Assembly (NCBI RefSeq): GCF_029784135.1
Contig: NC_073745.1
Coordinates: 76,627,569-76,691,568, forward strand
DNA length: 64,000 nucleotides
Origin: Toxorhynchites rutilus septentrionalis
Taxonomy: Eukaryota; Arthropoda; Insecta; Diptera; Culicidae
Reading direction: 5' to 3'
This document shows positions 5,743-62,089 of this stretch, one piece after another. The translations under genes were made by a program, and so were the position numbers. Within the stretch, counting starts at the first letter, position 1; every line of letters starts with the position of its first letter. Under the pieces are notes generated by a model. The model did no database searches, was not told the origin of the DNA, and saw only the letters and a list, made by a program, of their open reading frames with translations.

Positions 5743-5979
5743 TTAACCCATTAGTGCCCAGCGTATGAAATTTAATACGCAAAAATGCCCATTTTTGAAA
5801 AAGACGGGTGGGTAATGTCGGGGACATAACCGGAGTGACGTAGGACTATACAAAGGGGACAGCTTTTGTTAAATATATATTTTAAATATTTTATTTTATT
5901 TTCTTCTCCTACGTGAATACCTACCTATCTACCTGAAAAATTGATTAGTTTACCGTTTACTCTTTATGAATATGTTGAT

Positions 5980-5995
5980 GGTTCTGAAAAGAACC
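5980..5995 (-). promoter_or_regulatory. Histone mRNA 3' stem-loop, unit B, perfect
   Basis: On the minus strand this reads GGTTCTTTTCAGAACC: a perfect 6-bp stem with a 4-nt loop, matching the metazoan replication-dependent histone stem-loop. It lies downstream of the H2A-derived unit B in the same orientation. In functional genes this element binds SLBP and directs U7-dependent 3' end cleavage. Confidence 0.85.
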
Positions 5996-6221
5996 GTTGG
6001 TGTTGTGTTTTTGTTATCACTCGATATTCCCATCTTGTTCGGTTAAACCTTCCTGTTTAGCTATTGCGTTTGCCACTCGCCACAGCTTTCACAGTTGGAA
6101 AATTTCTTCCCATCCAGCTTGTGACATGTTCAGTAAATTACATTTAATGCGACGTGCCGGAGAAACACTATGCCACTCGCTGAAACTAATTGTTGCCTTG
6201 ATGAACGCCGAACCGAAGCTG

Positions 6222-6465
6222 CTCTGTTCTTGATGCGGGTTTTCTGATCGTCGTGAGCAGCTTTGCAAGCCAACTCGAGCACTTCGACGGCCGAAACTCT
6301 ATAATCGCTGTTAGGTATACTGGTGCTCCGGCACCAATCCGTTCGGCCTTGTTACCCTTGCGGAGCAATCAGTAAATGCGACCAACAGGGATCTGGAGAC
6401 CTGCACGGTTCGAGTGAGACTTTGCCTTTCCCTTAACTTGTCCTCCTTTGTTACGTCCACGATGC
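6222..6465 (-). pseudogene. H2A: Histone H2A pseudogene (unit B, copy 1)
   Basis: The minus strand encodes a recognisable H2A N-terminal half. It runs from an RGRNKGG-like basic tail through [14 protein letters not shown], a PVGRI-like segment, [19 protein letters not shown] (6368 downward) and decayed remains of the EVLELAGKAAHD helix and the KTRI segment. In-frame stops and frame changes break it, and no C-terminal docking domain is clear. Functional H2A is about 124 residues, intronless, and pairs with H2B in the nucleosome. An upstream TATA-like box at 6534-6541 and a downstream stem-loop at 5980-5995 give it the layout of a complete replication-dependent histone gene unit. It cannot encode a working histone. 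Confidence 0.8.
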
Positions 6466-6533
6466 CGATGCCGTACAACCACACGGGTTTACGGTTTGAA
6501 AGAAAATAACATATTTTTTTGGGGACCGCGTGT

Positions 6534-6541
6534 TTTATACT
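6534..6541 (-). promoter_or_regulatory. TATA-like box of histone unit B
   Basis: On the minus strand the sequence reads GAGTATAAAACACGC. It sits upstream of the H2A-like coding remnant by about the distance expected for a TATA box plus a short 5' leader. The same box is conserved at 50201-50210 and about 60072-60080 in other copies. Confidence 0.6.
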
Positions 6542-6699
6542 CTAGCGGTACACACTCACAGGATAGAGACAAATCGGCAGATTCAGCCAAAGGGGCGAGT
6601 CCAACGAGACGAATGAATGAGCGTTAAAAGGGAGCGATGGCAAAAAAATACATTCATTACGATTTGTTCGCTCGTTGGATTCACATGCAGGCGAAAAAG

Positions 6700-6715
6700 G
6701 GTCCTTTTCAGGATC
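6700..6715 (+). promoter_or_regulatory. Second histone-type stem-loop, opposite strand
   Basis: The plus strand reads GGTCCTTTTCAGGATC, which folds into a 6-bp stem (one G-U pair) with the TTTC loop typical of histone stem-loops. It points opposite to units A and B. No histone coding sequence is recognisable immediately upstream on the plus strand. Equivalent sites are at 50027-50042 (minus) and 60240-60255 (plus). Confidence 0.6.
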
Positions 6716-7256
6716 ACAACATTATCTTCAATCTAAAGAGTTTATTGTTTTGTTATCACTCGATATCCCCATCTTGTTCGGCTAAACCTTTCTGTTTAGC
6801 GATTGCATTTGCCACTCGCCACAGCTTTCACAGTTGGAAATTTTCTTCCCATCCAGCTTGTGACATATTTTACAGTAAATTACATTCAATGGCACGTCGC
6901 ATTACCACCACTCAGTATCGGATTGGAGGTAATTTTAACCTGTAATTGAACATTTGCGATGACAGTGGTACAGTGTCGACTTTCAATGTGGGGTCATAAT
7001 TTGGACCCCGAACTCTATGTTTACAAAAATGTCCAACTAAATATGTCGAATTACAGGTCCGTCCAATTAGCTAAATGTCGAGATAAGTGTAAATTACTGT
7101 ACTTTCAATCTAGAAGCATTTCTGCCAAATTCACATACTCATCATATCCTGGCAAACAAATTATGAAAAAATCAATTTGTGTTTTATTATTAATTTGGAT
7201 ATTGTTTTAGAAAGCATTGAACTGTATTTCCTAAACTCTTTTTTGGAAGGTTTAAT

Positions 7257-7272
7257 GGCCCTGAAAAGTGCC
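7257..7272 (-). promoter_or_regulatory. Histone mRNA 3' stem-loop, unit A (one mismatch)
   Basis: The minus strand reads GGCACTTTTCAGGGCC, a histone stem-loop with a single stem mismatch, located about 450 bp downstream of the unit A start codon. Confidence 0.75.
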
Positions 7273-7499
7273 TTGTTTTATGGAATGGTTCCAATTTAGA
7301 AAACTTTGTACTCGTGGTTTTAAAAAAAAACCATTTCGAACGCCCTCGATGCCGCCTTGTTCTGGATTTGCCACCAAAGCAGTTTGAATAAAGAACAAAC
7401 TTTTTTCTTCTGCTACCTGATGCCGTTTTGCGATTGCGTTTGCCACTCGCCACTCGCTGCAACTACCTGTTGTCTTGATGTCCACCGAACCGAATGTGT

Positions 7500-7716
7500 T
7501 CTGTTCCGAATGCAGGTTTTCTTATCGTCGCGAGCAGCTTTGCCAGCTAACTCGATCACTTCGGCGGCCGAAGCTATATAACGCCGGCCAGGTGGACTGG
7601 TGCACTGGTACTAACGCGCTCGGCCTAGCTACCCTTGCGGGGAACTCCAGATCAACACGGTTCGAGCGGGATTTTGCCTTTCCCTTCACTTTTCCTCCTT
7701 TAACATGTCCGGACAT
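7500..7716 (-). pseudogene. H2A: Histone H2A pseudogene (unit A, copy 1)
   Basis: The start codon is at 7716 on the minus strand. The first residues match H2A with a few changes: MSGHVKGGKVKGKAKSRSNR, where H2A has MSGRGKGG. An internal deletion removes the region around the first histone-fold helix. Out-of-frame remains of the [12 protein letters not shown] and EVIELAGKAARD segments follow. A CTTAAAAA box (7810-7817) and an initiator-like TCATTCTCATTC lie upstream, and a stem-loop lies at 7257-7272. The gene layout is kept while the protein is destroyed. Confidence 0.85.
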
Positions 7717-8081
7717 GGCTGCTTGGGTTGGTTTGTTGATGTGTTGTGATGCGAACCGATGTGGTGTACGGTTTGAATGAGAATGATCGTTACGGCAGCG
7801 GAGCGGGGATTTTTAAGCTGACTGGCTGGCTCGAGAATTACGCATGTGTGAGACTGCGACCAATGTTTCGTTCATTTTTTTTCTTTTTCCTTTCCAATCG
7901 TGCTTCATTCTATTTCGCTGCTGTGTTTTACCTCTTAAAGGATTCTAAATTGCTTAAATCTGTAACACAACACTACTAGACGAGTGTAGAAAATTATATC
8001 TAGCAAAAAATCCGAAGAAAATTATGAAACCGCAAAAAAAAAAGTTTACTTTTGAGCGTATGAAATTTCATATGACATGTC

Positions 8082-13603: not shown

Positions 13604-13920
13604 GAGGGGTAGCACGGCAGTGAAAACAGTGGAGTAATTCTCATACTTTTTGTTGGGAAGGCACTTGGTGGATAATGTATTTTTCAAAAAAACAGGAAGT
13701 GGGTTATATCTATGGTATACCCGCAAGGGTGACGTAGGACTATCGTTGATTTAGAGATCATTTGTTTGAAGTTGAATCTAAATCCATTCTGAATGAATGA
13801 ATAAATGAATATTTGGGAGACTTCGAAAACGAGAGCGTTACGTTGGAGGCACAAGGTTTTATGCATCCAATATAGGATACGAAAAACCTTGTTCTGAAGA
13901 ATAATCTTCAGAAGCTAACC

Positions 13921-15025
13921 TGCTAACTGTACTTGATTGACAAATCACAAACCCAAATGTATTATATGGATATTTTATGGATAGAAAACATTCAAATAAA
14001 CTTTTTCACATGAATGTATTTTTAAATTCCCAGAGGAACTGGCAGATTATTTTCAGTAACGATTACATATTTCCACATTTTCCTCGATACTGGAAGCCCA
14101 CCAGTGGTTAAAACTAACTCGATAATCACCTGTTAATAGTACTTGAGTGAAAAATATTTGGTCACAGTGTTACATGAATAGAAAACATTCAAATAAACTC
14201 TTTCACATGAATGTATTTTTAAATTCCCAGAGGAACTGGCTGATTATTTCCCAGCAATGATTAGATCTTTCCGGAACTTTCTCGATGCTGAATGACATCC
14301 AAACGGAAAGAATTCTGCGCGTGTATGTGTCGATCCTTCGCCGTCCACCTCCTCCAGCACGTTAGGCAACGATGTTGTCTTGTCGATGTCCTCACGAAAA
14401 ATGAATGTGTCTCACCACCAGAATATCGCTTAAGTATGCTTTTTGTGTGTGATTGAATCGAGAGAAGGTGTGGTTTACGATGGCAATTTGGAAGGCAAAC
14501 TAGAGGGGAATAAACTCTCTGAGCTCGGAACTTTCGGCGACAGAGCAAGAATCGATTGCGGGCGCATACAATATTGGATACGGAAATATCCTACTGATGG
14601 GGAAAAATAATCTTCAGAAGCTATCCTGTTAATTGCGATTGATTGAAAAATCACAAAACCAAATGTATTTGGTCACAGTGTTACATGGATAGAAAACATT
14701 CAAATAAACTCTTTCACATGAATGTATTTTTAAATTCCCAGAGGAACTGGCAGATTATTTTCAGTAACGATTAGTTATTTCCACATTTTCCTCGATACTG
14801 GAAGCCCACCAGTGGTTAATACTAATTCGATAACCATCTGTTAATAGCACTTGCTTGAAACATATTTGGTCACAGTGTTACATGAATAGAAAACATTCAA
14901 ATAAACTCTTTCACATGAATGTATTTTTAAATTCCCAGAGGAACTGGCTGATTATTTCCCAGCAATGATTAGATCTTTCCGGAACTTTCTCGATGCTGAA
15001 TGGCATCCAAACGGTAAGAATTCCG
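13921..15025 (+). repeat. Direct repeat pair inside the family-2 element
   Basis: Unit 1 (13921-14320) and unit 2 (14627-15025) are about 95 percent alike by eye and are spaced 706 bp apart. Each contains two shorter repeats beginning TAGAAAACATTCAAATAAAC. In copy 2 the corresponding units (about 23278-23495 and 24672-24855) flank the H3 pseudogene. Confidence 0.8.
14325..14405 (+). repeat. Relative of a short insertion found in family-1 repeats
   Basis: The segment with TCGCCGTCCACCTC, TCCAGCA, CAACGATGTTGTC and TCGATGTCC resembles the reverse complement of the insertion at 28755-28968, the same phrase order seen at about 61510-61560. It links the two histone-repeat families or marks insertion of the same small element in both. 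Confidence 0.5.
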
Positions 15026-15173
15026 CGCGTGTATGTGTGTGTGTGTGTGTGTAGCGGCTGCTTCGAGATCTTCCCGGGGAACTGTTTGTGGCATCACTCT
15101 CCTCCTGATGGATTCATGTCTAGCCTAAGGTGCACAAACAGGCTCTTGGTGACACCGTTCATCAGTGCTTTCA

Positions 15174-15270
15174 TGATAAACGAAAAGCTTCACCACAACA
15201 GCGGCAACATGCTCCAATCGCTGTTCAATTAGAACTGAGTGGATTTCCGAGCGGCGCTCGCTTATATACC
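15174..15270 (-). promoter_or_regulatory. Core promoter (TATA plus initiator) and mini-ORF start in family 2
   Basis: On the minus strand GGTATATAAGCG (TATA at about 15262-15268) is followed after about 30 bp by an arthropod-type initiator CTCAGTT (15233-15239). An ATG lies at 15174. The same arrangement is conserved in copy 2, with TATA at about 25061-25067, initiator at 25031-25037 and ATG at 24970. The encoded short peptide starts MKALMNGVTKSLFVHLR in both copies and ends after 25-32 residues; I do not recognise it. Confidence 0.6.
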
Positions 15271-15750
15271 GATTGGTGCTTTCAATAGCCTGTTTTGAAA
15301 GCAATTTTAAGACTATTGAAACAAGTTTTTGGATCAAAAAGTAACAAGTATAGAACGCGTAGACATTTTATCTTTCGAATGAAGTGTTTATCATACCATT
15401 TCGTTCAGTTGTTTAGGAGCTATTAACGCTCAAAATCTCGGTCTCCGGCGTAACGCTTTCGTTTTCGAAACTTTGATTTTACACCCCGGTATAGAAATGA
15501 AAGACGTAGTCCTACGTCAAAATAAGTCCATATGAACATAGATTTGTGAATGCACGAAGCGAGACGAAACGTTATTCATGCCATGGAAACTCAAACGTGG
15601 CCGATGAGCTTGATGAAATTAAAATCCGTAGCGGCGATCTAGATTCCATAGGAGGAATCATAGTGGAAACTGGTTGTGTCGCCATTCCTCAAAAGTTTCA
15701 AGGCTAAACATTGGGGATAGCTCACGCAAAACATCCACTTAAAGCCAGTG

Positions 15751-23052: not shown

Positions 23053-23573
23053 CAGGAAGTGGGTTATATCTATGGTATAACCACAAGGGTGACGTAGGAC
23101 TATCGTTGATTTAGAGATCATTTGTTTGAAGTTGAATCTAAATCCATCCTGAATGAATTAATAAATAAATATTTGGGAGACTTCGAAAACGAGAGCGTTA
23201 CGTTGGAGGCTCAAGGTTTTATGCATCCAATATTAGATACAAAAAAACCTTGTTCTGAAGAATAATCTTCAGAAGCTTTCCTGCTAACTGCACTTGATTG
23301 ACAAATCACAAAACCAAATGTATGTGGTCGCAGTATTATATGGATAGAAAACATTAAGATAAACTCGCTTGAATGTAATTTTCAATTCCAAGGGGAACTG
23401 GCAGATTATTTTTCAGCAACGATCATTTCTTTCCAGGTTTCTTTTCGATAACCAGCAAACGAAAAGAGTTGCGCGCGTGTATGTGTGTGTGTGTTCGTTC
23501 ATTTCTTACTCTACTCTCGCACCGTGAGGACTCGAGCTCGTTAGTCTTTCGCAGACAGCTCGTTACTCTTTCA

Positions 23574-23900
23574 ATGGTAAGACACACGAAAGCAGCTCGG
23601 ATAAGCGCACCAGCAGCAGGATAGATGAAGAAGCCACATCGCTATCGACCTGGAACTTCGCATGAAATTCGTCGCTATCAGAAGTCGACCGAATTGCTGA
23701 TCCGCAAGCTACCTTTGCAGCATTTGGTTCGTGGAATTGCTCAGGACTTCCAAACCGACTTGCGCTTCCAAAGTTCCGCGGTTATGACGCTGCAGGAGGC
23801 TTATTAGAAGATACCAATTTGTGTGCTATCCATGTAAAACGCGTCACATCATGCCCAAGGACATCCAGCTGGCCCATCGTATCCGAGGAGAACGTGCTAT
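23574..23900 (+). pseudogene. H3: Histone H3 pseudogene
   Basis: The frame begins ATG at 23574, continues into TKAARISAPAAG after loss of about 20 N-terminal residues, then hits a TAG at 23622. It continues as [47 protein letters not shown] and QEAY (23625-23807). After a deletion and stop, remnants of EDTNLCAIH, KRVT, MPKDIQLA and RIRGERA reach about 23897. H3 (136 residues) is a core nucleosome histone; these blocks are its alphaN helix and histone fold. A histone stem-loop follows at 23933-23948. It is dead as protein-coding DNA yet keeps gene-like order. Confidence 0.93.
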
Positions 23901-23932
23901 ATTAGCTTAGCATATAATCAACGGCCCTTTTC

Positions 23933-23948
23933 AGGGCTCCAAATTTGA
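23933..23948 (+). promoter_or_regulatory. Histone mRNA 3' stem-loop of the H3 pseudogene
   Basis: GGCCCTTTTCAGGGCT folds into a 6-bp stem (terminal pair G-U) with a TTTC loop. It lies about 35 nt after the H3 stop position, the normal distance for replication-dependent histone genes. Confidence 0.9.
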
Positions 23949-24969
23949 TGGATTAGAGTTCAGAAAAGTTTTTTACAGGCCGAACTGAAAAGAGCATTTA
24001 GCGAAAATCGTGTTTTGATAATAATTCGATACCGATAAGTGCCATGGATATGGATTTCATAATGAAGAATATGAAATACATGACATGATGTAGTGAATAT
24101 ATCCGAAGAAATCACTGCATTATAAAATTATTTGTGTACGAATGCCGCAATCGATAGTCGACTCTAATTTGCGCTGGGTAATTTCCTCGGTGGACTCGAT
24201 TCCTCCTTTGAGCATTAATAATTTCTTTCTGGCAAAACGAAGTGGTATGAATCACATTATTTGAATGATAGAATGAAGAAGTTTTCTGCCAATTTCCTTC
24301 AACCTCCAAACGTATCTTTCTCCCGTTTGTCGTTTTCGCGTTCGCTAATCCTTTCTCACAACACCCATTTCTAGTTTGAGAAATTGTTGAGTAAACATTG
24401 TTTGTCAGTGCGCGTAGAGCGGGAATTCCTAAAGATTCATTGCACCTCTAATAAATTGCCGAAAGACGTGGTCTTACGTTGATCGCACTTGATTGAAAAA
24501 ATCAAAAACGAAATGTATTTGGTCGCAGCATTATATGAGTAGAAAGCAAATAATCGCTCGAAAATGACTTGATTTTCGCGATGTGAAACATTTTCCGTTT
24601 TTCATGTTATGCATCCAATATTGGATACGAAAATTTCCACTGATGGGGAAAAAAATATTCAGAAGCTTTTATGTTAATTGAGATTGATTGAAAAATCACA
24701 AAACCAAATGTATTTGGTTGCAGTGTTATATGGATAGAAAACATTAAAATAAACTCTTTCGCATGAATGTATTTTTCAATTCCCAGGGGAACTGGCAAAT
24801 TATTTTTCAGCAACGATGATAACAACGAGGATTCCGCGCGTGTGTGTGTGTGTGGCGGCTGCTCCGATGTTTTAAGCGGCACCGTGGTATCTCTCTCCTC
24901 CTGATGGATTCCCTTCTGGCCTTAGGTGCACAAACAGGCTCTTGGTGACACCGTTCATCAGCGCTTTCA

Positions 24970-25067
24970 TGATAAACGAAATTAGCTTCACAACAACAGT
25001 GACAACATGCTCCAAACGCTGTTCAATCATAACTGAGTGGGTTTACGAGCGGCGCTCGCTTATATAC
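24970..25067 (-). promoter_or_regulatory. Core promoter and mini-ORF start, family-2 copy 2
   Basis: The minus strand has TATATAAGCG at about 25061, an initiator CTCAGTT at 25031-25037 and an ATG at 24970. The downstream peptide starts as in copy 1 (MKALMNGVTKSLFVHLR) and ends after about 32 residues. Conservation of TATA, initiator and peptide start in both copies is the support. Confidence 0.6.
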
Positions 25068-25582
25068 CGATTGGTGATTTCAATAGCCTGTTTTGAAAGC
25101 AATTTTAAGACTATTGAAACAAGTTTTTGGATGAAAAAGTAACAAGTATATGACGCGTAGACATTTTATCTTTCGAATGAAGTGTTTATCATAACATTTC
25201 GTTCAGTTGTTTAAGAGCTATTAACGCTCAAAATCTCGGTCTCCGGCGTAACGCTTTCGTTTTCGAAAGATTGATTTTACACCCCGGTATAGAAATGAAA
25301 GACGTAGTCCTACGTCAAAACATTCAAAAAAATCAGAGACTGATGGAGCATTCAACAAGCCCACTATAAGCCCACCCTTTCAAAACCAGCAAGCAGGTGA
25401 TTCCAGATTATCTATTATCTATTTTCTATCTAGAGAAAAATTTGTATCGGACGAATGAGCTGAATTTCATATTCATTGTTTAATGTTTTTTGTTTCAGAA
25501 TGATTAGACAACAATTGCTTTTGTTTCTAATATAATTTGATAGGTTTTTGGGAGCTTTGGCGTTTCTCTCCGTACAGCGACA

Positions 25583-25636: not shown

Positions 25637-26135
25637 TCGCAAATCTTGCATCTGCTCAAACTTGGAAGTATTAAAATATGTTAAGTAGGGGAGAGGGAGG
25701 GGGCATTCGGACACTTTTGACGTAGGACTACGTCTAACCGGAAGATATAGGGGGTGAAATGGAAATCTAGGCACTGAACAAGTAGGAAAAAATGCAAGAT
25801 TTGGAACGCTTATAACTCGAGCATTTCTCAATAGCTCGCAAAGGTTTTTGCATCAATTGATAGGAAATATATCTACGCATCTATCATAACGAATAACATT
25901 TCATTTTTCTTGAGATAAATAATTGAATAATTGTGAAATATCAAGCATTGTCAAAATGCCCTATGTGCCCATTTTTGATTGGTCCATTTTGTGCTCCTCA
26001 AATCGTACCGACCAAAACGGGCAACCAGAGCAGCAGCGAAATAGAATGAAGCACCATTGGAAAAGAAAAAGAAAAAAATGAACGAAACATTGGTCGCTGT
26101 CTCACACATGCGTAATTCTCGAGCCAGCCAGTAAG

Positions 26136-26143
26136 CTTAAAAA
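26136..26143 (+). promoter_or_regulatory. TATA-like box of histone unit A
   Basis: CTTAAAAA followed by CCCCGCTCCGC and an initiator-like CATTCTCATTC lies about 100 bp upstream of the H2A ATG at 26237. The arrangement is conserved in copies at about 7810 (minus), 48933 and 61590 (minus). Confidence 0.55.
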
Positions 26144-26236
26144 TCCCCGCTCCGCTGCCGTAACGATCATTCTCATTCAAACCGTACACCACATCGGTTC
26201 GCAACACAACACATCAACAAACCAACCCAAGCAGCC

Positions 26237-26470
26237 ATGTCTGGACATGGTAAAGGAGGAAAAGTGAAGGGAAAGGCAAAATCCCGCTCGAACCGTGTTG
26301 ATCTGGAGTTCCCCGCAAGGGTAGCTAGGCCGAGCGCGTTAGTACCAGTGCACCAGTCCACCTAGCCAGCGTTATATAGTTTCGGCCGCCGAAGTGATCG
26401 AGTTAGCTGGCAAAGCTGCTCGCGACGATAAGAAAACCCGCATTCGGAACAGAACACATTCGGTTCGGTG
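26237..26470 (+). pseudogene. H2A: Histone H2A pseudogene (unit A, copy 2)
   Basis: The start codon at 26237 opens MSGHGKGGKVKGKAKSRSNR, nearly identical to the H2A N-terminal tail, then VDLEFPARV in place of AGLQFPVGR. An internal deletion follows and a stop closes the frame near 26362. Out-of-frame remains of the GAGAPVYL and EVIELAGKAARD segments and a KTRIRN segment are visible to about 26455. The stem-loop at 26683-26698 (GGCGCTTTTCAGGGCC, one mismatch) follows. Confidence 0.85.
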
Positions 26471-27256
26471 GACATCAAGACAACAGGCAGTTGCAGCGAG
26501 TGGCGAGTGGCAAACGCAATCGCAAAACTGCATCAGGTAGCAGAAGAAAAAAGTTTGTTCTTTATACAAACTGCTTTGGTGGCAAATCCAGAACAATGCG
26601 GCATCGAGGGCGTTCGAAATGGTTTTTTTTTTCAAAACCACGAGTACTAAGTTTTCTAAATTGGAACCATTCCATAAAACAAGGCGCTTTTCAGGGCCAT
26701 TAAACCTTCCAAAAAAGAGTTTAGGAAATACAGTTCAATGCTTTCTAAAACATTATCCAAAATAATAATAAAACACAAATTGATTTTTTCATAATTTGTT
26801 TGCCAGGATCTGATGAGTATGAGAATTTGGCAGTTGTTCTGAGCTTATTGATAGTTGGGGACTTTCCTGATTATTCAATTTTCACCAATTCTTAAATTGT
26901 TTCCAGATTGAAAGTACAGTAATTTACAATTAGTTCGACATTCAGCTAATTGGACGGACATGTAATGCGACTTATTTAGTTGGACATTTTTGTAAACATA
27001 GAGATCCAAATTAGGACCCCACATTGAAAGTCGACACTGTACCACTGTCATCGCAAATGTTCAATTACAGGTTAAAATCGCCTCCAATGCGACACTGAGT
27101 GGCGCTTCGGCACGTCGCATTGAATGTAATTTACTGTACAATATGTCACAAAGCTGGATGGGAAGAAATTTTCCAACTGTGAAAGCTGTGGCTAAACAGG
27201 AAGGTTTAACCGAACAAGATGGGAATATCGAGTGATAACAAAAACACAACACCAAA

Positions 27257-27272
27257 GGTTCTTTTCAGAACC
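27257..27272 (+). promoter_or_regulatory. Histone mRNA stem-loop without its gene (unit B)
   Basis: GGTTCTTTTCAGAACC, a perfect 16-nt histone stem-loop, is kept although the H2A unit B upstream has been deleted in this copy. Confidence 0.85.
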
Positions 27273-27449
27273 ATCAACATATTCATAAAGAGTAAACAGT
27301 AAACTAATCCATTTTTCAGGCAGATAGGTAGGTATTCACGTAGGAGAAGAAAATAAAACAATATATTTAAAATATATATTTAATAAAAGCTGTCCCCTTT
27401 GTATAGTCCTACGTCACTCCGGTTATGTCCCCGACATTACCCACCCGTC

Positions 27450-28309: not shown

Positions 28310-28754
28310 GACGTAGGACTACGTCTAACCGGAAGATATAGGGGGTGAAATGAAAATCTAGGCACTGAACAAGTAGGAAAAAATGCAAGATTTGGAACGC
28401 TTATAACTCGAGCATTTCTCAATAGATCGCAAAGGTGTTTGATCAATTGAAATATATCTACGCATCTATCATAACGAATAACATTTCATTTTTCTTGAGA
28501 TAAACAATTGAATAATTGTGAAATATCAAGCATTATCCAAATGCACTATGTGCCCATTTTTGATTGGTCCATTTTGTGCTCCTCAAATCGTACCGACCAA
28601 AACGGGCAATCAGAGCAGCAGCGAAATACAACGAAGCACGATTGGAAAGGAAAAAGAAAAAATATGAACGAAAGATTGGTCGCAGTCTCACACATGCGTA
28701 ATTATCGAGCCAGCCATTCAGCTTAAAAATCCCCGCTCCGCTGCCGTAACGATC

Positions 28755-28968
28755 ACATTCTTTGTGTGGACACCGACTGGACAACATCGTTGCTGGACGA
28801 GCTGGACGGCGAGGGATCGAGTGCCTTTCTCAAGGCAAGAGGGCGGAGGTGGTAGCGCTGGAGTAGAGTAGAGTAGAGTTTTCAAAGGGCCTTTCTCAAG
28901 GCTAGAGACGAATGAACTGCAAAAGTTTAAAGTCTCTATAATACAATACCTTCCTTCCTTTCTTCCTT
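28755..28968 (-). mobile_element. About 214-bp insertion with 12-bp target duplication
   Basis: CCGTAACGATCA occurs on both sides (28743-28754 and 28969-28980), and copies without the insertion have it once. The insertion contains GCCTTTCTCAAGGC hairpins twice and a CCTTCCTTCC-type simple-repeat end. The same insertion with the same duplication is at 61358-61560. I see no clear A and B boxes, so SINE identity is unproven. Confidence 0.75.
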
Positions 28969-29047
28969 CCGTAACGATCATTCTCATCCAAACCGTACAC
29001 CTTATCGTTTCGCATCACAACACATGAACAAACCAACACAAGCAGCC

Positions 29048-29212
29048 ATGTCTGGACATGGCAAGGGAGGAAAAGTGAAGGGAAAGGCAAAATCCCGCTC
29101 GAACAGTGTTGGTCTGCAGTTCTCCGTAGGTGTATCCGCCAATTGCTACGCAAGGGTAGCTAGGCCGAGTGCGTTAGTACCAGTGCACCAGTCCACCTAG
29201 CCGGCGTTATAT
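29048..29212 (+). pseudogene. H2A: Histone H2A pseudogene (unit A, copy 3, interrupted)
   Basis: Starts MSGHGKGGKVKGKAKSRSNS at 29048, followed by VGLQFSVGVS. This is slightly closer to real H2A (AGLQFPVGR) than the other unit A copies. It then decays and is cut at 29212 by the mariner end. Promoter elements upstream are separated by the 214-bp insertion. Confidence 0.8.
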
Positions 29213-29213
29213 A

Positions 29214-29970: not shown

Positions 29971-30124
29971 AAATAGTAGAAGCAGTGAGGTTAGCGTCGC
30001 AATCTTGGAAACTTCGTTCCACTGCAAACGTAAAAAGAAATCGTTCATGAGAAAAACGCTCTCAGTAGTGTCGCAAAAGCGTTGTTGTGGACATATTTTC
30101 AATTCCGTTAGTATGGGAGGATGA
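29327..30124 (+). pseudogene. Fused transposase frame, DD41D N-terminus to DD37E C-terminus
   Basis: A single open frame of 265 codons. Residues about 1-65 (MDRFSIAQRVNFVKLYYK, then FRALRTDFGRHGRPTEHTIA) are the DNA-binding front of the DD41D family. Residues about 66-212 are the back half of a DD37E transposase: FASEYLVWQAICSCGLRSEP, FWPDLASCHYSKSVLEWYEA, NPPNCPELRPVEQYW, with second Asp and Glu 37 residues apart. The first catalytic Asp of the DD37E domain is missing because the join falls after it. From about residue 215 the frame runs into non-LTR sequence on the other strand. It is inactive as a transposase, but the join is in frame. Confidence 0.85.
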
Positions 30125-32339: not shown

Positions 32340-32552
32340 ACGCAAAAATACAACACCAAAGGTTCTTTTCAGAGCTCCCAACATGTTCATAAAGAGTAAA
32401 CAGTAAACTAATCCATATTTCAGGTAGATAGGTAGGTATTCAAGTAGGAGAAGAAAATAAAACAATATATTTAAAACATATATTTAGACAAAGCTGTATC
32501 TTTGCATAGTCCTACGTCACTCCGGTTATGTCCCCGACATTACCCACCCGTC
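32340..32552 (+). mobile_element. Distal end of a family-1 histone repeat (copy 3, right part)
   Basis: Contains the unit B stem-loop region (GGTTCTTTTCAGAGCT, 32361-32376), the AGTAAACAGTAAACTAATCC segment, the subterminal TAGTCCTACGTCA and the terminal CACCCGTC before a T-run. It has the same orientation as the left part at 28310-29212, so the two are probably halves of one element separated by later insertions. Confidence 0.75.
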
Positions 32553-41157: not shown

Positions 41158-42445
41158 AAGGGTATGTCACATCAAATTGCATCACGGAAAAAACGCTGTA
41201 GAAATTCGCCCAGTAGACCGATCCTTTTGAAAATTTTAGACAGTAAAATAAAAACTATTAAACAATTTTTGGCATTTTCTTTTTATTCATACTTCGAGCC
41301 CAAGCCCGTATGCTCGCACCTTCCTCTTTACTCCGTCCATAAGGTTCTGTACAACGTCAGGTTGTAGTTTTTTTTGAACAGAAATCCATTTTCTCTTGAA
41401 GTCCGCCTCCGATTTGACAACTTTTGGGTTCTTCCGGAGGGCCTGCTTCATAATCGTCCAATATTTCTCTATTGGGCGAAGCTCCGGCGCGTTGGGCGGG
41501 TTCATTTCCTTTGGCACGAAGGTGACCCCGTTGGCTTCGTACCACTCCAACACGTCCTTTGAATAGTGGCACGAAGCGAGATCCGGCCAGAAGATGGTCG
41601 GGCCCTCGTGCTGCTTCAATAGTGGTAGTAAGCGCTTCTGTAGGCACTCCTTAAGGTAAACCTGCCCGTTTACCGTGCCGGTCATCACGAAGGGGGCGCT
41701 CCGCTTTCCGCAAGAGCAGATCGCTTGCCACACCATGTACTTTTTGGCAAACTTGGATAGTTTCTGCTTGAGAATCTCCTCCGGAACGCTGAATTTGTCC
41801 TCTGCGGAGAAGAACAACAGGCCCGGCAGCTGACGAAAGTCCGCTTTGACGTAGGTTTCGTCGTCCATTATCAGGCAATGCGGCTTCGTCAGCATTTCGG
41901 TGTACAGCTTCCGGGCTCGCGTCTTCCCCAGCATGTCCTGCCTTTCGTCGCGGTTAGGAGCCTTCTGAACCTTGTCTGTACGCAGGCCCTTCCGCTGCTT
42001 GGTCCGCAGGACGAATGAACTTGACAAATTCAGCTTATTGGCGACATCCCGGACCGAACTTCTCGGATCACGTCTAAACTGCTTAACTACGCGCTTGTGA
42101 TCTTTTTCACTGACGGAGCATCCATCTTCACCTTCCGGTCGATGGTTAGGTTCTCGAAGTATCGTTTTAGTACTCTGCTGACCGTGGATTGGACGATTCC
42201 CAGCATCTTACCGATGTCCCGATGTGACAACTCCGGATTCTCGAAATGAGTGCACAGGATTAATTCACGACGCTCTTTTTCGTTCGACGACATTTTTCCA
42301 AATTTACGAAAAATTGACAGTGAAGCATGGCCAACGTGATCTATACACTCTTATCTGATTATAAGCGAAAGCTGAAGATATAATTCCTAAAAATTAAATT
42401 TCTACAGCGTTTTTTCCGTGATGCAATTTGATGTGACACACCCTT
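41158..42445 (-). mobile_element. DD37E Tc1/mariner (ITmD37E-type), copy 3
   Basis: The copy is 1288 bp with terminal AAGGGTATGTCACATC at one side (one base off the usual) and the standard inverse at the other. TA flanks at 41156-41157 and 42446-42447. Inserted in the RT thumb of a non-LTR element. Confidence 0.93.
41287..42293 (-). pseudogene. DD37E transposase, copy 3 (broken N-terminal half)
   Basis: Residues 1-56 start MSSNEKERRELILCTHFENP at 42293, then a deletion removes the KNGKNG segment and shifts the frame. From 42027 a 246-residue frame runs through MDDETYVKADF, FWPDLASCHYSKDVLEWYEA and LRPIEKYW to the natural C-terminus LQPDVVQNLMDGVKRKVRAY and GLGLEV. The catalytic domain and C-terminus are intact while the DNA-binding half is not continuous. 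Confidence 0.88.
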
Positions 42446-48386: not shown

Positions 48387-49023
48387 GAAAAGCGGTTAAA
48401 ATGAACACCCTAAGCAATATGCATATTTACTTCGTCCACATACTGCTACAATTTCCGTTCTTCGAAGAATCTTATAGCTTAACTAACTGTTGTTCAAGAT
48501 ATCAAACGGTTTTGACGTAGGACTACGTCTAACCGGAAGATATAGGGGGTGAAATGGAAATCTAGGCACTGAACAAGTAGGAAAAAATGCAAGATTTGGA
48601 ACGCTTATAACTCGAGCATTTCTCAATAGATCGCAAAGGTTTTTGCATCAATTGATAGGAAATATATCTACGCATCTATCATAACGAATAACATTTCATT
48701 TTTCATGAGATAAATAATTGAATAATTGTGAAACATCAAGCATTGTCAAAATGCCCTATGTGCCCATTTTTGATTGGTCCATTTTGTGCTCCTCAAATCG
48801 TACCAATCAAAACGGGCAACCAGAGCAGCAGCGAAATAGAATGAAGCACGATTGGAAAGGAAAAAGAAAAAAAAATGAACGAAACACTGGTCGCAGTCTC
48901 ACACATGCGGAATTCTCGAGCCAGCCAGTCAGCTTAAAAATCCCCGCTCCGCTGCCGTAACGATCATTCTCATTCAAACCGTACACCACATTACAACACA
49001 TCAACAAACCAACCCAAGCAGCC

Positions 49024-49250
49024 ATGTCTGGACATGGTAAAGGAGGAAAAGTGAAAGGAAAGGCAAAATCCCGCTCGAACCGTGTTGATCTGGAGTTCCC
49101 CGCAAGGGTAGCTAGGCCGAGCGCGTTAGTATCAGTGCACCAGTCCACCTAGCCGGCGTTATATAGTTTCGGCCGCCGAAGTGATCGAGTTAGCTGGCAA
49201 AGCTGCTCGCAACGATAAGAAAACCCACATTCGGAACAGAACACATTCGG
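49024..49250 (+). pseudogene. H2A: Histone H2A pseudogene (unit A, copy 4)
   Basis: ATG at 49024 opens MSGHGKGGKVKGKAKSRSNR, then VDLEFPARV. After the same internal deletion seen in the other unit A copies, remains of GAGAPVYL and EVIELAGKAARD follow in other frames to about 49235. Promoter-like CTTAAAAA lies at 48933-48940 and the stem-loop GGTGCTTTTCAGGGCC at 49471-49486. The shared deletion shows that the unit was already defective when the copies spread. Confidence 0.85.
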
Positions 49251-50026
49251 TTCGGTGGACATCAAGACAACAGGCAGTTGCAGCGAGTGGCGAGTGGCAA
49301 ACGCAATCGCAAAACGGCATCAGTTAGCAGAAGAAAAAAGTTTGTTCTTTATACAAACTGCTTTGGTGGCAAATCCAGAACAAGGCGGCATCGAGGGCGT
49401 TCGAAATGGTTTTTTTTTTTCAAAACCACGAGTACTAAGTTTTCTAAATTGGAACCATTCCATAAAACAAGGTGCTTTTCAGGGCCATTAGACCTTCCAA
49501 AAAAGAGTTTAGGAAATACAGTTCAATGCTTTCTAAAACATTATCCAAAATAATAATAAAACACAAATGTTTTCATAATTTGTTTGCCAGGTTCTGATGA
49601 GTATGTGAATTTGGCAGTTGTTCTGAGCTTATTGATAGTTGGGGACTTTCCTGATTATTCAATTTTCACAAATTCTTAAATTGTTCCCAGAGAGAAAGTA
49701 CAGTAATTTACAATTAGTTCGACATTTGCCCACATTAGTTCGACATGACCCCACATTGAAAGTCGACACTGTACCACTGTCATCGCAAATGTTTAATTAC
49801 AGGTTAAAATCGCCTCCAATGCGACACTGAGTGTTGCTTCGGCACGTCGCATTAAATATAATTTACTGTACAACATGTCACAAAGCTGGATGGGAAGAAA
49901 TTTTGCAACTGTGAAAGCTGTGGCGAGTGGCAAATGCAATCGCTAAACAGAAAGGTTTAGCCGAACAAGATGGGGATATCGAGTGATAACAAAACAATAA
50001 ACTCTTTAGATTGAAGATAATTTTGT

Positions 50027-50042
50027 GATCCTGAAAAGGACC
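50027..50042 (-). promoter_or_regulatory. Opposite-strand histone-type stem-loop (copy 4)
   Basis: The minus strand reads GGTCCTTTTCAGGATC. It is conserved at 6700-6715 and 60240-60255. No histone coding sequence is recognised next to it on that strand. Confidence 0.6.
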
Positions 50043-50200
50043 CTTTTTAGCCTGCATGTGAATCCAACGAGCGAACAAATCGTAATGAATGTATTTTTTT
50101 GCCATCGCTCCCTTTTAACGCTCATTCGTTCGTCTCGTTGGACTCGCCCCTCTGGCTGAGTCTGCCGATTTGTCTCTATCCTGTGAGTGTGTACCGCTAG

Positions 50201-50210
50201 AGTATAAAAC
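50201..50210 (+). promoter_or_regulatory. TATA box of unit B (copy 4)
   Basis: AGTATAAAAC upstream of the H2A-like sequence by about 80 bp, with CGTTCGTCTCGTTGG upstream of it. Conserved in copies 1 and 5. Confidence 0.6.
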
Positions 50211-50284
50211 ACGCGGACCCCAAAAAATATCTTATTTTCTTTCAAACCGTAAATGCGTGTGGTTGTACGGCATCGGCATCGTGG

Positions 50285-50520
50285 AGGACAAGTTGAGGGA
50301 AAGGCAAAGTCTCACTCGAACCGTGCAGGTCTCCAGTTCCCTGTTGGTCGCATTCACTGATTGCTCCGCAAGGGTAACTAGGCCGAACGGATTGGTGCTG
50401 GAGCACCAGTATACCTAACAGCGATTATAGAGTTTCGGCCGTCGGAGTGCTCGAGTTGGCTTGCAAAGCTGCTCACGACAATCAGAAAACCCGCATCAAG
50501 AACAGAGCAGCTTCGGTTCG
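50285..50520 (+). pseudogene. H2A: Histone H2A pseudogene (unit B, copy 4)
   Basis: The plus strand encodes [20 protein letters not shown] and VGRIH, a stop, LLRKGN, a stop, then [15 protein letters not shown] and decayed [20 protein letters not shown]. This half is closer to genuine H2A than unit A because the region of the first fold helix is kept, but it has in-frame stops and has lost the first codons. The stem-loop GGTTCTTTTCAGAACC follows at 50737-50752. Confidence 0.87.
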
Positions 50521-50736
50521 GCGCTCATCAAGGCAACAATTAGTTTCAGTGAGTGGCAAAGTGTTTCTCCGGCACGTCGCATTAAATGTAATTTACTGAA
50601 CAACATGTCACAAGCTGGATGGGAAGAAATTTTCCAACTGTGAAAGCTGTGGTGAGTGGCAAACGCAATAGCTAAACAGGAAGGTTTAACCGAACAAGAT
50701 GGGAATGTCGAGTGATAACAAAAACACAACACCAAA

Positions 50737-50752
50737 GGTTCTTTTCAGAACC
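50737..50752 (+). promoter_or_regulatory. Histone mRNA 3' stem-loop, unit B, perfect (copy 4)
   Basis: GGTTCTTTTCAGAACC, perfect 6-bp stem and TTTC loop, identical to those at 5980-5995 and 27257-27272. Confidence 0.87.
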
Positions 50753-50931
50753 ATCAACATATTCATAAAGAGTAAACAGTAAACTAATCCATTTTTCAGG
50801 TAGATAGGTAGGTATTCACGTAGGAGAAGAAAATAAAACAATATATTTAAAATATATATATTTAACAAAAGCTGTCCCCTTTGTATAGTCCTACGTCACT
50901 CCGGTTATGTCCCCGACATTACCCACCCGTC

Positions 50932-51491: not shown

Positions 51492-52764
51492 AAGGGTGTG
51501 TCACATCAAATTGCATCACGGAAAAAAACGCTGTAGAAATTCGCCCAGTAGACCGATCCTTTTGAAAATTTTAGACAGTAAAATAAAAACTATTAAACAA
51601 CTTTTGACATTTTCTTTTTATTCATACTTCGAGCCCAAGCCCGTATGCTCGCACTTTCCTCTTTACCCCGTCCATAAGGTTCTGTACAACGTCAGGTTGT
51701 AGTTTTTTTTTAACAGAAATCCATTTTCTCTTGAAGTCCGCCTCCGATTTGACAACTTTTGGGTTCTTCCGGAGGGCCTGCTTCATAATCGCCCAATATT
51801 TCTCTATTGGGCGAAGCTCCGGCGCGTTAAGCGGGTTCATTTCCTTTGGCACGAAGGTGACCCCGTTGGCTTCGTACCACTCCAACACGTCCTTTGAATA
51901 GTGGCACCAAGCGAGATCCGGCCAGAAGATGGTCGGGCCCTCATGCTGCTTCAATAGTGGTAGTAAGCGCTTCTGTAGGCACTCCTTAAGGTAAACCTGC
52001 CCGTTTACCGTGCCGGTCATCACGAAGGGGGCGCTCCGCTTTCCGCAAGAGCAGATCGCTCGCCACACCATGTACTTTTTGGCAAACTTGGATAGTTTCT
52101 GCTTGCGAATCTCCTCCGGAACGCTGAATTTGTCCTCTGCGGAGAAGAACAACAGGCCCGGCAGCTGGCGAAAGTCCGCTTTGACGTAGGTTTCGTCGTC
52201 CATTACCAGGCAATGCGGCTTCGTCAGCATTTCGGTGTACAGCTCCCGGGCTCGCGTCTTCCCCACCATGTTTTGCCTTTCGTCGCGGTTAGGAGCCTTC
52301 TGAACCTTGTATGTACGCAGGCCCTCCCGCTGCTTGGTCCGCTGGACGAATCAACTTGACAAATTCAGCTTATTGGCGACATCCCGGACCGAACTTCTCG
52401 GATCACGTCTAAACTGCTTAACTACGCGATTGTGATCTTTTTCACTGACGGAGCATCCATTTTTGCCGTTCTTCACCTTCCGGTCGATGGTTAGGTTGGA
52501 CCGTGGATTGGACGATTCCCAGCATCTTACCGATGTCCCGATGTGACAACTCCGGATTCTCGAAATGAGTGCACAGGATTAATTCACGACGCTCTTTTTC
52601 GTTCGACGACATTTTTCCAAATTTACGAAAAATTGACAGTGAAGCATGGCCCACGTGATCTATACACTCTTATCTGATTATAAGCGAAAGCTGAAGATAT
52701 AATTCCTAAAAATTAAATTTCTACACCGTTTTTTCCGTGATGCAATTTGATGTGGCATTCCCTT
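51492..52764 (-). mobile_element. DD37E Tc1/mariner (ITmD37E-type), copy 4
   Basis: The copy is 1273 bp with ends AAGGGTGTGTCACATC and a slightly mutated inverse (GTGGCATTCCCTT), flanked by TA at 51490-51491 and 52765-52766. Confidence 0.92.
51622..52613 (-). pseudogene. DD37E transposase, copy 4 (broken N-terminal half)
   Basis: The N-terminus starts MSSNEKERRELILCTHFENP at about 52613 and ends early because a deletion removes the TVSRVLKRYFEN segment. The sequence then has a stop in the SSSFVQR region at about 52350. From 52269 a 215-residue frame runs intact through MDDETYVKADF, FWPDLAWCHYSKDVLEWYEA, LRPIEKYW and the natural C-terminus GLGLEV. Ser after the second Asp motif is changed to Trp. 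The enzyme is not complete. Confidence 0.87.
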
Positions 52765-58129: not shown

Positions 58130-58387
58130 CAATGATGATTTCAATAGCTTGCTTTCAAAGCAATTTTTAAGCTATTGAAACGATTTTTAGGACCAATAAT
58201 TGACAATCATATAACTCGTTGCCATTTTATCTTTCGGATGAAGTGATTATTATACCACTCCATTCAGCCGGTAAAGAGGTATTAACGTGCAGAACCTTGC
58301 ACTCCAGCGTCACTCTCTCGTTTTCGAAACTTTGAACTTACACACCGGTACAGAAATGTACAGAAATGAAGGACGTAGTTCTACGTC
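58130..58387 (+). mobile_element. Family-2 histone-type repeat, right-end fragment
   Basis: Matches 25063-25316 with moderate divergence: TTTCAATAGC, CATTTTATCTTTCG, GAAGTG-TTAT, CTCGTTTTCGAAACTTTGA and the terminal GACGTAGTTCTACGTC followed by AAAA. It has neither an H3 unit nor a left end, so it is a truncated, older copy. Confidence 0.7.
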
Positions 58388-59240: not shown

Positions 59241-59529
59241 TAAGAATGAAAAAACACGTGTGTCCAAAAAAACATAACAAACATATTGTTTTTTGGAATA
59301 AACAGGGGCTTCTCCGCGTTGCGCAATTATTATTCTCTTTCTCAGAAAAAAAGACGGGTGGGTAATGTCGGGGACATAACCGGAGTGACGTAGGACTATA
59401 CAAAGGGGACAGCTTTTGTTAAATATATATTTTAAATATATTGTTTTACTTTCTTCTCCTACGTGAATACCTACCTATCTACCTGAAAAATGGATTAGTT
59501 TACTGTTTACTCTTTATGAATATGTTGAT

Positions 59530-59545
59530 GGTTCTGAAAAGAGCC
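59530..59545 (-). promoter_or_regulatory. Histone stem-loop, unit B, copy 5 (one mismatch)
   Basis: The minus strand reads GGCTCTTTTCAGAACC, differing from the perfect form in copies 1, 2 and 4 by one stem base. Confidence 0.8.
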
Positions 59546-59739
59546 TTTGGTGTTGTGTTTTTGTTATCACTCGATATTCCCATCTTGTTCGGTTAAACCT
59601 TCCTGTTTAGCTATTGCGTTTGCCACTCGCCACAGCTTTCACAGTTGGAAAATTTCTTCCCATCCAGCTTGTGACATGTTGTTCAGTAAATTACATTTAA
59701 GGCGACGTGCCGGAGAAATACTTTGCCACTCACTGAAAC

Positions 59740-60000
59740 TAATTGTTGCCTTGATGAGCGCCGAACCGAAGCTGCTCTGTTCTTGATGCGGGTTTTCTGA
59801 TTGTCGTGAGCAGTTTTGCAAGCCAACTCGAGCACTCCGACGGCCAAAACTCTATAATCGCTGTTAGGTATACTGGTGCTCCGGCACCAATCCGTTCGGC
59901 CTAGTTACCCTTGCGGAGCAATCAGTGAATGCGACCAACAGGGAACTGGAGACCTGCACGGTTCGATTGAGACTTTGCCTTTCCCTCAACTTGTCCTCCA
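59740..60000 (-). pseudogene. H2A: Histone H2A pseudogene (unit B, copy 5)
   Basis: The minus strand carries [20 protein letters not shown] and VGRIH, then [21 protein letters not shown], and [20 protein letters not shown] in decayed form. Stops fall at the same places as in copy 4. A TATA box lies at about 60074 and an opposite-strand stem-loop at 60240-60255. Confidence 0.85.
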
Positions 60001-60819
60001 CGATGCCGATGCCGTACAACCACACGCATTTACGGTTTGAAAGAAAATAAGATATTTTTTGGGGTCCGCGTGTTTTATACTCTAGCGGTACACACTCACA
60101 GGATAGAGACAAATCGGCAGACTCTGCCAGAGGGGCGAGTCCAACGAGACGAACGAATGAGCGTTAAAAGGGAGCGATGGCAAAAAAATACATTCATTAC
60201 GATTTGTTCGCTCGTTGGATTCACATGCAGGCTAAAAAGGGTCCTTTTCAGGATCACAAAATTATCTTCAATCTAAAGAGTTTATTGTTCTGTTATCACT
60301 CGATATCCCCATCTTGTTCGGCTAAACCTTCCTGCTTAGCGATTGCGTTTGCCACTCGCCACAGCTTTCACAGTTGGAAAATTTCTTCCCATCCAGCTTG
60401 TGACATGTTGTACAGTAAATTACATTCAATGGCACGTCGCATTACCACCACTCAGTATCGGATTGGAGGTAATTTTAACCTGTAATTGAACATTTGGTAC
60501 AGTGTCGACTTTCAATGTGGGGTCATAATTTGGACCCCGAACTCTATGTTTACAAAAATGTCCAACTAAATATGTCGCATTACAGGTCCGTCCAATTAGC
60601 TAAATGTCGAGATAAGTGTAAATTACTGTACTTTCAATCTAGAAGCAATTTGAGAATTGGTGAAAATCAATAAGCTCAGAACAACTGCCAAATTCACATA
60701 CTCATCATATCCTGGCAAACAAATTATGAAAAAATCAATTTGTGTTTTATTATTATTTTGGATATTGTTTTAGAAAGCATTGAACTGTATTTCCTAAACT
60801 CTTTTTTGGAAGGTTTAGT

Positions 60820-60835
60820 GGCCCTGAAAAGCGCC
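60820..60835 (-). promoter_or_regulatory. Histone stem-loop, unit A, copy 5
   Basis: The minus strand reads GGCGCTTTTCAGGGCC, one mismatch in the stem, as at 26683-26698. Confidence 0.75.
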
Positions 60836-61059
60836 TTGTTTTATGGAATGGTTCCAATTTAGAAAACTTAGTACTCATGGTTTTGAAAAAAACCATTTCG
60901 AACGCCCTCGATGCCGCCTTGTTCTGGATTTGCCACCAAAGCAGTTTGTATAAAGAACGAACTTTTTTCTTCTGCTACCTGATGCCGTTTTGCGATTGCG
61001 TTTGCCACTCGCCACTCGCTGCAACTGCCTGTTGTCTTGCTGTCCACTGAACAGAATGT

Positions 61060-61278
61060 GTTCTGTTCCGAATGCGGGGTTTCATATCGTCGCGAGCAGC
61101 TTTGCCAGCTAACTCGATCACTTCGGCGGCCGAAACTATATAACGCCGGCTAGGTGGACTGGTGCACTGATACTAACGCGCTCGGCCTAGCTACCCTTGC
61201 GGGGAACTCCAGATCAACACGGTTCGAGCGGGATTTTACCTTTCCCTTCACTTTTCCTCCTTTACCATGTCCAGACAT
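61060..61278 (-). pseudogene. H2A: Histone H2A pseudogene (unit A, copy 5)
   Basis: ATG at 61278 on the minus strand opens MSGHGKGGKVKGKVKSRSNR, then VDLEFPARV, with the unit A internal deletion and out-of-frame GAGAPVYL and EVIELAGKAARD remains. The promoter region is separated from it by the 203-bp insertion. Confidence 0.83.
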
Positions 61279-61357
61279 GGCTTCTTGGGTTGGTTTGTTG
61301 ATGTGTTGTGATGCGAACCGATGTGGTGTACGGTTTGAATGAGAATGATCGTTACGG

Positions 61358-61560
61358 AAGGAAGGAAGGTATTGTATTATAGAGACTTTAAACTTTTGCA
61401 GTTCATTCGTCTCTAGCCTTGAGAAAGGCCCTTTGAAAACTCTACTCTACTTTACTCCAGCGCTACCACCTCCGCCCTCTTGCCTTGAGAAAGGCACTCG
61501 ATCCCTCGCCGTCCAGCTCGTCCAGCAACGATGTTGTCCAGTCGGTGTCCACACAAAGAA
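61358..61560 (+). mobile_element. About 203-bp insertion with 12-bp duplication (sister of 28755-28968)
   Basis: TGATCGTTACGG flanks it at 61346-61357 and 61561-61572. Content matches 28755-28968 in reverse complement, including two GCCTTGAGAAAGGC hairpins. Confidence 0.75.
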
Positions 61561-62089
61561 TGATCGTTACGGCAGCGGAGCGAGGATTTTTAAGCTGATT
61601 GGCTGGCTCGAGAATTACGCATGTGTGAGACTGCGACCAATGTTTCGTTCATTTTTTTCTTTTTCCTTTCCAATCGTGCTTCATTCTGTTTCGCTGCTGC
61701 TCTGGTTGCCCGTTTTGGTCGGTACGATTTGAGGAGCACAAAATGGACCAATCAAAAATGGGCACATAGTGCATTTTGACAATGCTTGATATTTCACAAT
61801 TTTTCAATTATTTATCTCAAGAAAAATGAAATGTTATTCGTTATGATAGATGCGTAGATATATTTACTATCAATTGATGCAAAAACCTTCGCGATCTATT
61901 GAGAAATGCTCGAGTTATAAGCGTTCCAAATCTTGCATTTTTTCCTGCTTGTTCAGTGCCTAGATTTCCATTTTACCCCCTATATCGTCCGGTTAGACGT
62001 AGTCCAACGTCAAAAAAACTTGCAACTTGCTTCTTCTTTTAGATTTTTAACTACCAAGCGCAAAGAACGATGAAAACGAATTAAGGCCG

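Follow-up and report, generated by a model that had tools for sequence, protein, structure and literature searches.

HINEs are described as the non-autonomous partners of Helentrons, with palindromic subterminal inverted repeats (subTIRs), a 3' palindrome, and insertion into runs of T, the number of T being variable and the target otherwise unmodified (PMC4067079). They are defined by a palindromic subTIR of 12 to 15 bp beside the 5' end, the inverse subTIR 38 to 60 bp from the 3' end, and a palindrome of 5 to 10 bp lying 8 to 35 bp from the 3' end (PMC4067079). One Helentron, Helentron-Cq-32A of Culex quinquefasciatus, was reported there by Thomas, Vadnagara, and Pritham in 2014 to contain two broken histone fragments and to be present in eight copies (PMC4067079). 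Here we describe a repeat from the mosquito Toxorhynchites rutilus septentrionalis in a window of 64,000 nucleotides (C2:76627569-76691568, within a 902.6-Mb assembly), where its reference copy, D, occupies positions 48514..50931 of the plus strand. We conclude, with a probability of about 0.9, that this repeat is a non-autonomous Helentron (HINE) which enters T-runs by a rolling-circle process using the proteins of autonomous Helentrons, and that an ancestral capture of histone DNA was followed by its decay and amplification.

Five copies of the repeat, A to E, were delimited in the window by self-BLAST, together with alignment of the ends for D, for A, and for the right part of C. Copy D is full-length, copy A (5803..7923, minus strand) is without its first 312 bp, copy B (25719..27449, plus strand) has an internal gap of 748 bp, copy C is divided into a left part (28310..29213) and a right part (32343..32552), both on the plus strand, and copy E (59353..62011, minus strand) carries a nested insert of approximately 200 bp that is common to C. 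The reading of the letters alone from which this work started (the sequence-only reading) had given these copies common ends, and this held for the right end in 5/5 and for the left end in 4/5, A being the exception. Relative to D there were 40/1659 substitutions in B, 80/2371 in E, 77/2025 in A, and 33/631 and 15/210 in the two parts of C. The final 46 bp had 0 substitutions in the 184 bases contributed by A, B, C, and E, which against the overall 245/6,896 has a chance near 0.001. The flanking DNA was unrelated between copies. Since one nested insert and one identical 12-bp duplication are found in both C and E, at unrelated places, the loaded element itself was copied. The insert (28761-28960 in C and 61358-61557 in E, 99.5% identical) has the 12-bp duplication at its flanks and a CCTT-rich tail and, judged from its sequence, looks like a short retroposon.

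The ends of the repeat follow a constant plan. The left end consists of T4 to T7 followed by the 16-nt GACGTAGGACTACGTC, a 7-bp palindrome around two bases, and the right end consists of TAGTCCTACGTC and a tail of 34 bp, in which a hairpin stands 8 nt short of the terminus, followed by T5 to T7. In D the left palindromic repeat, or 5' subTIR, follows T4 and was located by repeat search at 48514..48529 (plus strand); the same search placed the 12-nt inverse of it, the 3' subTIR, at 50886..50897 (minus strand), 34 bp before the right end, and folding placed the hairpin at 50903..50923 (plus strand). A search with the left repeat also found elements F (13693..15518, minus strand) and G (23053..25316, minus strand), which have the identical repeat and form a subfamily other than that of A to E. 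The T-run was followed immediately by the 16-nt repeat in B, C, D, F, and G, and by a version of it with one change in E; the 12-nt inverse repeat lay 34 bp from the right end in A to E and 38 bp in F and G. The 5' palindrome folded better than most shuffled sequences (z of -2.58). The 3' hairpin has 3+5 pairs and lies 8 nt from the end in D; in G it has a 7-bp stem 9 nt from the end, and in F it is degraded and differs from the predicted fold. Both the palindromic 5' subTIR and the 3' palindrome of HINEs were thus found. The canonical Helitron was tried and rejected, as 5' TC, 3' CTRR, and insertion between A and T were not seen, the ends reading TTTT/GACG and CGTC/TTTTT.

Within the window, T4 to T7 preceded 6/6 complete left ends and T5 to T7 followed 7/7 right ends, against a background in which 1.7% of window positions follow T4 and 0.7% precede T5. 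The same was seen at the 30 best genome matches to D (loci L002 to L031, of which L002 and L011 are window copies, and L003 and L004 represent one insertion within an inverted duplication, with flanks in common). The left end followed T2 to T8 in 30/30 of these loci, and 24/30 also had the right end, before T4 to T11. When the joined flanks of the 24 loci with both ends were searched, four loci (L018, L010, L015, and L021) had an unfilled paralogue reading cleanly across the junction; the spanning match for L014 was too diverged to read and stands outside the four. The host of L018 is a transposase-type element, four copies of which are unfilled in the window, and L021 is inserted inside another copy of D's own family. 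Filled sites differed from empty sites by the element plus 2 to 8 extra T, with no target duplication beyond T. The target is therefore T-rich, with a T number varying on both sides and no other change, as is typical of HINEs. The suggestion that the repeat was a dispersed mobile element with defined ends and histone units as cargo is borne out by the constant ends and by these empty sites, the latter found by the comparison of flanks that had been proposed as a check.

A MITE-like (miniature inverted-repeat transposable element) DNA transposon moving by cut-and-paste, bounded by inverted repeats and making a short target duplication of T alone, would also leave an inverted 12-nt repeat near both ends, T on both flanks, and filled sites with 2 to 8 extra T. 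We consider this very unlikely, since the repeats are placed unequally (0 versus 34 to 38 bp from the ends), the T numbers of the two sides are unequal in many copies, and the Helentron layout fits better, with Helentron-type Rep frames occurring in the genome. The cut-and-paste class, which calls for terminal inverted repeats at both ends and a target duplication of fixed size, was accordingly rejected.

To define the cargo, the window was searched by tblastn with five typed histone sequences at an E cut-off of 0.01, and all of the matches fell inside A to E or G. Unit 1 matched H2A in 5/5 copies (E values of 4e-11 to 1e-16), and unit 2 did so in A, D, and E (6e-25 to 1e-24), which are the only copies with both units. 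The expectation of two H2A units in each full copy therefore applies to A, D, and E; B has lost unit 2 in its 748-bp gap, both ends of which lie within two direct repeats, and has kept the unit-2 stem-loop, and in C other insertions separate what remains, namely the beginning of unit 1 and the last part of unit 2. Unit 1 comprises a TATA-like box, an ATG, and H2A pieces in shifting frames. In D these are the box TTAAAAA, read by eye at 48934..48940, and a broken H2A at 49024..49231 (both plus strand), in which residues 1-26, 35-55, and 59-78 are in differing frames with one TAG stop. This TAG is the identical codon in all five copies, and a 24-bp deletion in unit 1 is common to A, B, D, and E and not found in C. 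Unit 2 of A, D, and E comprises a TATAAAA box and residues 3 or 4 to 78 of H2A, with stops and a frameshift; in D the box was read by eye at 50203..50209 and the broken H2A lies at 50274..50497 (both plus strand), as residues 4-61 and 59-78. The start or near-start of H2A that had been proposed for each unit is present in unit 1 as the ATG; unit 2 has no recognisable H2A start codon. In the window copies the H2A similarity ends at residue 78, so that the phrase "whole histone transcription units" in the sequence-only reading does not describe these broken H2A bodies.

Both units end in a histone-type stem-loop followed by a purine-rich downstream element. The unit-1 loop of D (49471..49486, plus strand), found by sequence pattern, has one mismatched pair, and the unit-2 loop (50737..50752, plus strand) has a perfect 6-bp stem and an Rfam E value of 1.2e-8. 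With the gathering cut-off of RF00032 at 34 bits, the unit-2 loops of A, B, and D passed (1.2e-8 to 1.7e-8), those of E (33.2 bits) and C (24.4 bits) fell below it, and the unit-1 loops of A, B, and E scored 24.0 to 25.8; the unit-1 loop of D gave no RF00032 report, even at E 10. A third histone-type loop lies between the units on the opposite strand in D, A, and E; in D it was found by pattern at 50027..50042 (minus strand) and scored 18 bits in Rfam. H2A and H2B genes are often divergent in insects, and for this reason the opposite-strand loop is probably the remnant tail of an H2B gene. In the window there was no match to H2B coding sequence at E <0.01. Self-BLAST, tblastn, and Rfam together thus uphold the initial description of five copies of one repeat with H2A-derived units, histone-type promoters, and 3' stem-loops.

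The repeat is abundant. Exact-pattern counts over the assembly, for each of which the reversed control gave 0, returned 22,455 sites for TT plus the left repeat, 7,642 copies of the 26-base H2A-type left end, and 3,994 copies of the first 23 bases of the cargo H2A. Among the first 30 left-repeat sites by coordinate on contig C1, 5 were H2A-type, all 5/5 with H2A within approximately 1.5 kb; over the same distance the other 25 had H3 in one (L067) and H2A in none at E 0.01. At the Rfam gathering threshold there were 0 hits in 20/30 sampled loci, with approximately 1.5 kb of each element covered and the strong unit-2 loop out of reach. Scans of IMG/VR for the element ends gave 0, 0, and, for a 17-letter pattern, 1 stretch, which may be a chance match.

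These data bear on whether the copies could instead be segmental duplications of a histone cluster, or strays from it, with no transposon involved. The cargo is clearly histone-locus DNA, and the L003/L004 pair does have common flanks in an inverted duplication. Against this, the flanks of the window copies are unrelated and the four empty sites contradict segmental duplication. When D was searched against the genome, 40 of the 4,289 candidates were scored and yielded 47 matches, which lay on C1, C2, C3, and the small contig C228, so that the genome search proposed to detect a single-cluster origin found the copies dispersed and not beside one histone array. The nearest intact H2A on C2, among the matches listed, is approximately 25 Mb from the window. 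We regard this explanation as extremely improbable. The H2A search itself scored 150 of 20,767 candidates, and among these best 150 were 59 intact, 100% H2A genes, on C2 (101.6-102.7 Mb), C3 (233.6 Mb), and small contigs, and 5 further full-length open frames at 92 to 98%; most of the remaining candidates scored have stop codons, frequently one TGA together with one TAG. Intact H2A genes are found in either orientation on contig C113 and at C2:101.62-101.74 Mb. Most of them are 8 to 25 kb apart, a spacing much wider than that of a compact histone unit, and one broken H2A lies amid intact ones at C113:24473-24766.

Candidate protein partners were found in the same genome. Helitron_like_N had 132 matches, from 150 scored of 1,313 candidates. 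The Helentron signature in Rep, F-K-R before the motif and S between G and P, was present in 11/20 of the Helitron_like_N loci read, with M at that position in 4, L in 3, and no motif in 2. Two pairs among the 11 Helentron-type loci, 99.97% and 100% identical over 3.5 kb, have open frames of 1,674 and 1,564 aa. Helentron-type Rep frames are located at C2:320571306, C3:178037638, C2:6603193, and C2:26079453. We infer that the Helentron-type Rep proteins of this genome move the family to which A to G belong. As for the cargo, an ancestral copy would have taken up part of a replication-dependent histone locus. This part would have held H2A sequence, now seen as two units, and the end of a gene read in the other direction, which was probably H2B. 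The coding sequence would then have decayed in master copies, and the histone-bearing block would have been amplified to thousands of copies from a few masters. The uptake itself probably came about by the rolling-circle process; capture in rolling-circle copying, then decay and the spread of a few masters, would account for the defects that the copies have in common, for the nested insert, and for the copy number.

Several observations weigh against the assignment to Helentrons. Over the 3.2 to 3.5 kb covered at each of the 20 Rep loci, no element bounded by these ends was found to contain a Helentron protein, and the 12-nt repeat occurred in 1/20 (L050), where a D-type right end precedes a Rep fragment. 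Nor did the terminal 250 to 300 bp of D and G convincingly match any of the 11 Helentron-type loci, the best E value being 0.08. The 34-bp distance in A to E is shorter than the published 38 to 60 bp, becoming 39 to 41 bp when the T-run is counted. The 3' hairpin is weak when taken alone (z of -1.70 in D, -1.80 in G, and -0.66 in F), and the extra T of filled sites may be part of the element or a T-only target duplication. Finally, beyond the left repeat D and F aligned with a score of 56, which is not significant, as 500 shuffles averaged 37 and reached up to 68.

We also considered that the element is a Helentron as proposed whose histone parts have been kept for function, for example as S-phase promoters or as 3' end signals of element RNA. 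The promoter-like boxes and stem-loops are still present, the stem is intact in 20/22 instances of unit 2 and in 21/22 of the opposite-strand loop, and histone pieces occur in two subfamilies here and in one published Culex Helentron. Change counts back-calculated from mean values gave fewer changes in the opposite-strand loop than in the sequence flanking it (p 0.03), and likewise for the three loops pooled (p 0.049); these tests are uncorrected for multiple testing or kinship, and the copies are related. The unit-2 loop, in contrast, changes at the same rate as its flanks (p 0.80), and the unit-1 stem is mispaired in 35/36 instances. Stem-loop conservation is therefore a weak sign of use, retention for function is in our view very unlikely, and the histone cargo of the Helentron would be a passenger. 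A further speculation, to which we give little credence, is that culicid Helentrons repeatedly acquire replication-dependent histone genes, namely H2A with an H2B-type tail and H3 in Toxorhynchites and two other fragments in Culex, because expression or copying of the element becomes linked to S phase by a histone promoter and 3' end lying close to its left end. If true, stem-loop binding protein and U7 processing in Toxorhynchites rutilus septentrionalis would bear a real burden from the thousands of histone promoters and stem-loops scattered through the genome.

The relationship of F and G to the H2A-type copies was examined with the published rule by which at least 11 bp of identical subTIR makes one family and at least 80% identity over the last 60 bp one subfamily (PMC4067079). 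The 16-nt left repeat is identical between D and F/G, and the last 60 bp are 62% identical between A to E and F/G, 92 to 100% among A to E, and 97% between F and G, so that by sequence, under this rule, the two groups are one Helentron family with two subfamilies. G contains a broken H3 gene in the direction opposite to its own (23586..23898, plus strand; tblastn 8e-38), and approximately 25 nt past the H3 coding match there is a histone stem-loop (23918..23963, plus strand) with an Rfam E value of 0.027, below the cut-off. F and G also have short repeats followed by a purine-rich element, which may be worn histone 3' ends and gave no Rfam report up to E 10. A linker-histone (H1) piece in F/G, as in the Culex element, was considered and rejected. 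The sole hint of it was a match of 26 residues to a Drosophila H1 domain, which 12/2000 shuffles equalled or bettered, and there was no support for H1 in the window from a profile of 120 H1 homologues run against 2,088 six-frame pieces, nor for an H1 piece from Pfam or PDB sequence searches, Pfam having also missed the short, 26-residue start of the unit-1 H2A. A 5' fragment of an F/G-type element, its left repeat carrying changes, was found by left-repeat search at 58133..58387 (minus strand). At L053, L061, L071, L072, L073, L076, and L080 (7/30 sampled sites), the sequence past the 16-nt repeat was unlike both D and F/G, which suggests further subfamilies. The first 60 bp of the nested insert of C and E is 75% like the stretch 14330-14398 of F.

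Other features of the window include four copies of what we take to be a Tc1/IS630-like transposase element (10948-11946, 30601-31635, 41287-42207, and 51622-52350), one of them open for 344 codons and two with a Pfam DDE_3 match; these copies are the empty sites for L018. In a single open frame at 29261-30124, a DUF4817 helix-turn-helix start is followed by DDE_3 sequence, possibly through the fusion of two transposase genes. Long hairpins at 4912-5023 and 17247-17436 matched MIR9563 and MIR2606 below the Rfam cut-off and are more likely MITE-type palindromes than miRNA. At 19958-20685 there is a long microsatellite, several frames of which are open (poly-SN, poly-VI, poly-Y, and poly-L).

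The finding has practical consequences for this genome, in which histone gene counts and H2A/H3 surveys will be overwhelmed by copies of the transposon. Two questions also become testable, namely whether mosquito Helentrons favour histone loci and whether the dispersed histone promoters and stem-loops are transcribed in S phase. Histone orphons are isolated pieces of histone genes that lie outside the tandem arrays; they differ from A to E, where a transposon with defined ends carries the histone pieces. Among rolling-circle elements, canonical Helitrons of maize and bat likewise have gene pieces as cargo (PMC4067079), with the terminal and target hallmarks already noted as absent from A to E. 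HINE-Mo of Metaseiulus occidentalis and DINE-1/INE-1 of Drosophila resemble the present repeat in having subTIRs near both ends, a 3' palindrome, and insertion at TT (PMC4067079). They differ in that no gene fragment was found in the mite elements and in that the subTIRs of DINE-1 are not palindromic (PMC4067079).

The sequence-only reading had known of no named element like this one, a statement that does not hold, given the Helentron/HINE type and the published histone capture in Culex (PMC4067079). Helentron-Cq-32A shares the palindromic subTIRs, 3' stem-loop, and T-run insertion that the paper states for Culex Helentrons (PMC4067079). Its cargo, compared here from the published description, is given there as H4 superfamily and H15 (linker histone) in the eight copies (PMC4067079). 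The Toxorhynchites element differs in that it belongs to another genus, is present in thousands of copies, and carries H2A units that include promoters and 3' ends. The model cited for a Culex fragment, smart00428, is presumably an H3 model, in which case that fragment would resemble element G. We recognised no other report of a histone-carrying Helentron in the open-licence literature. New here are thus the host, the cargo (two H2A units and a probable H2B tail, with H3 in the sister subfamily), and the scale, and there is a hint of repeated histone capture by mosquito Helentrons. Histone capture by Helentrons is thereby widened from the eight published Culex copies to at least 3,994 copies with an exact H2A start in another genus, where the gene set differs from that of Culex and retains its promoters and 3' signals.
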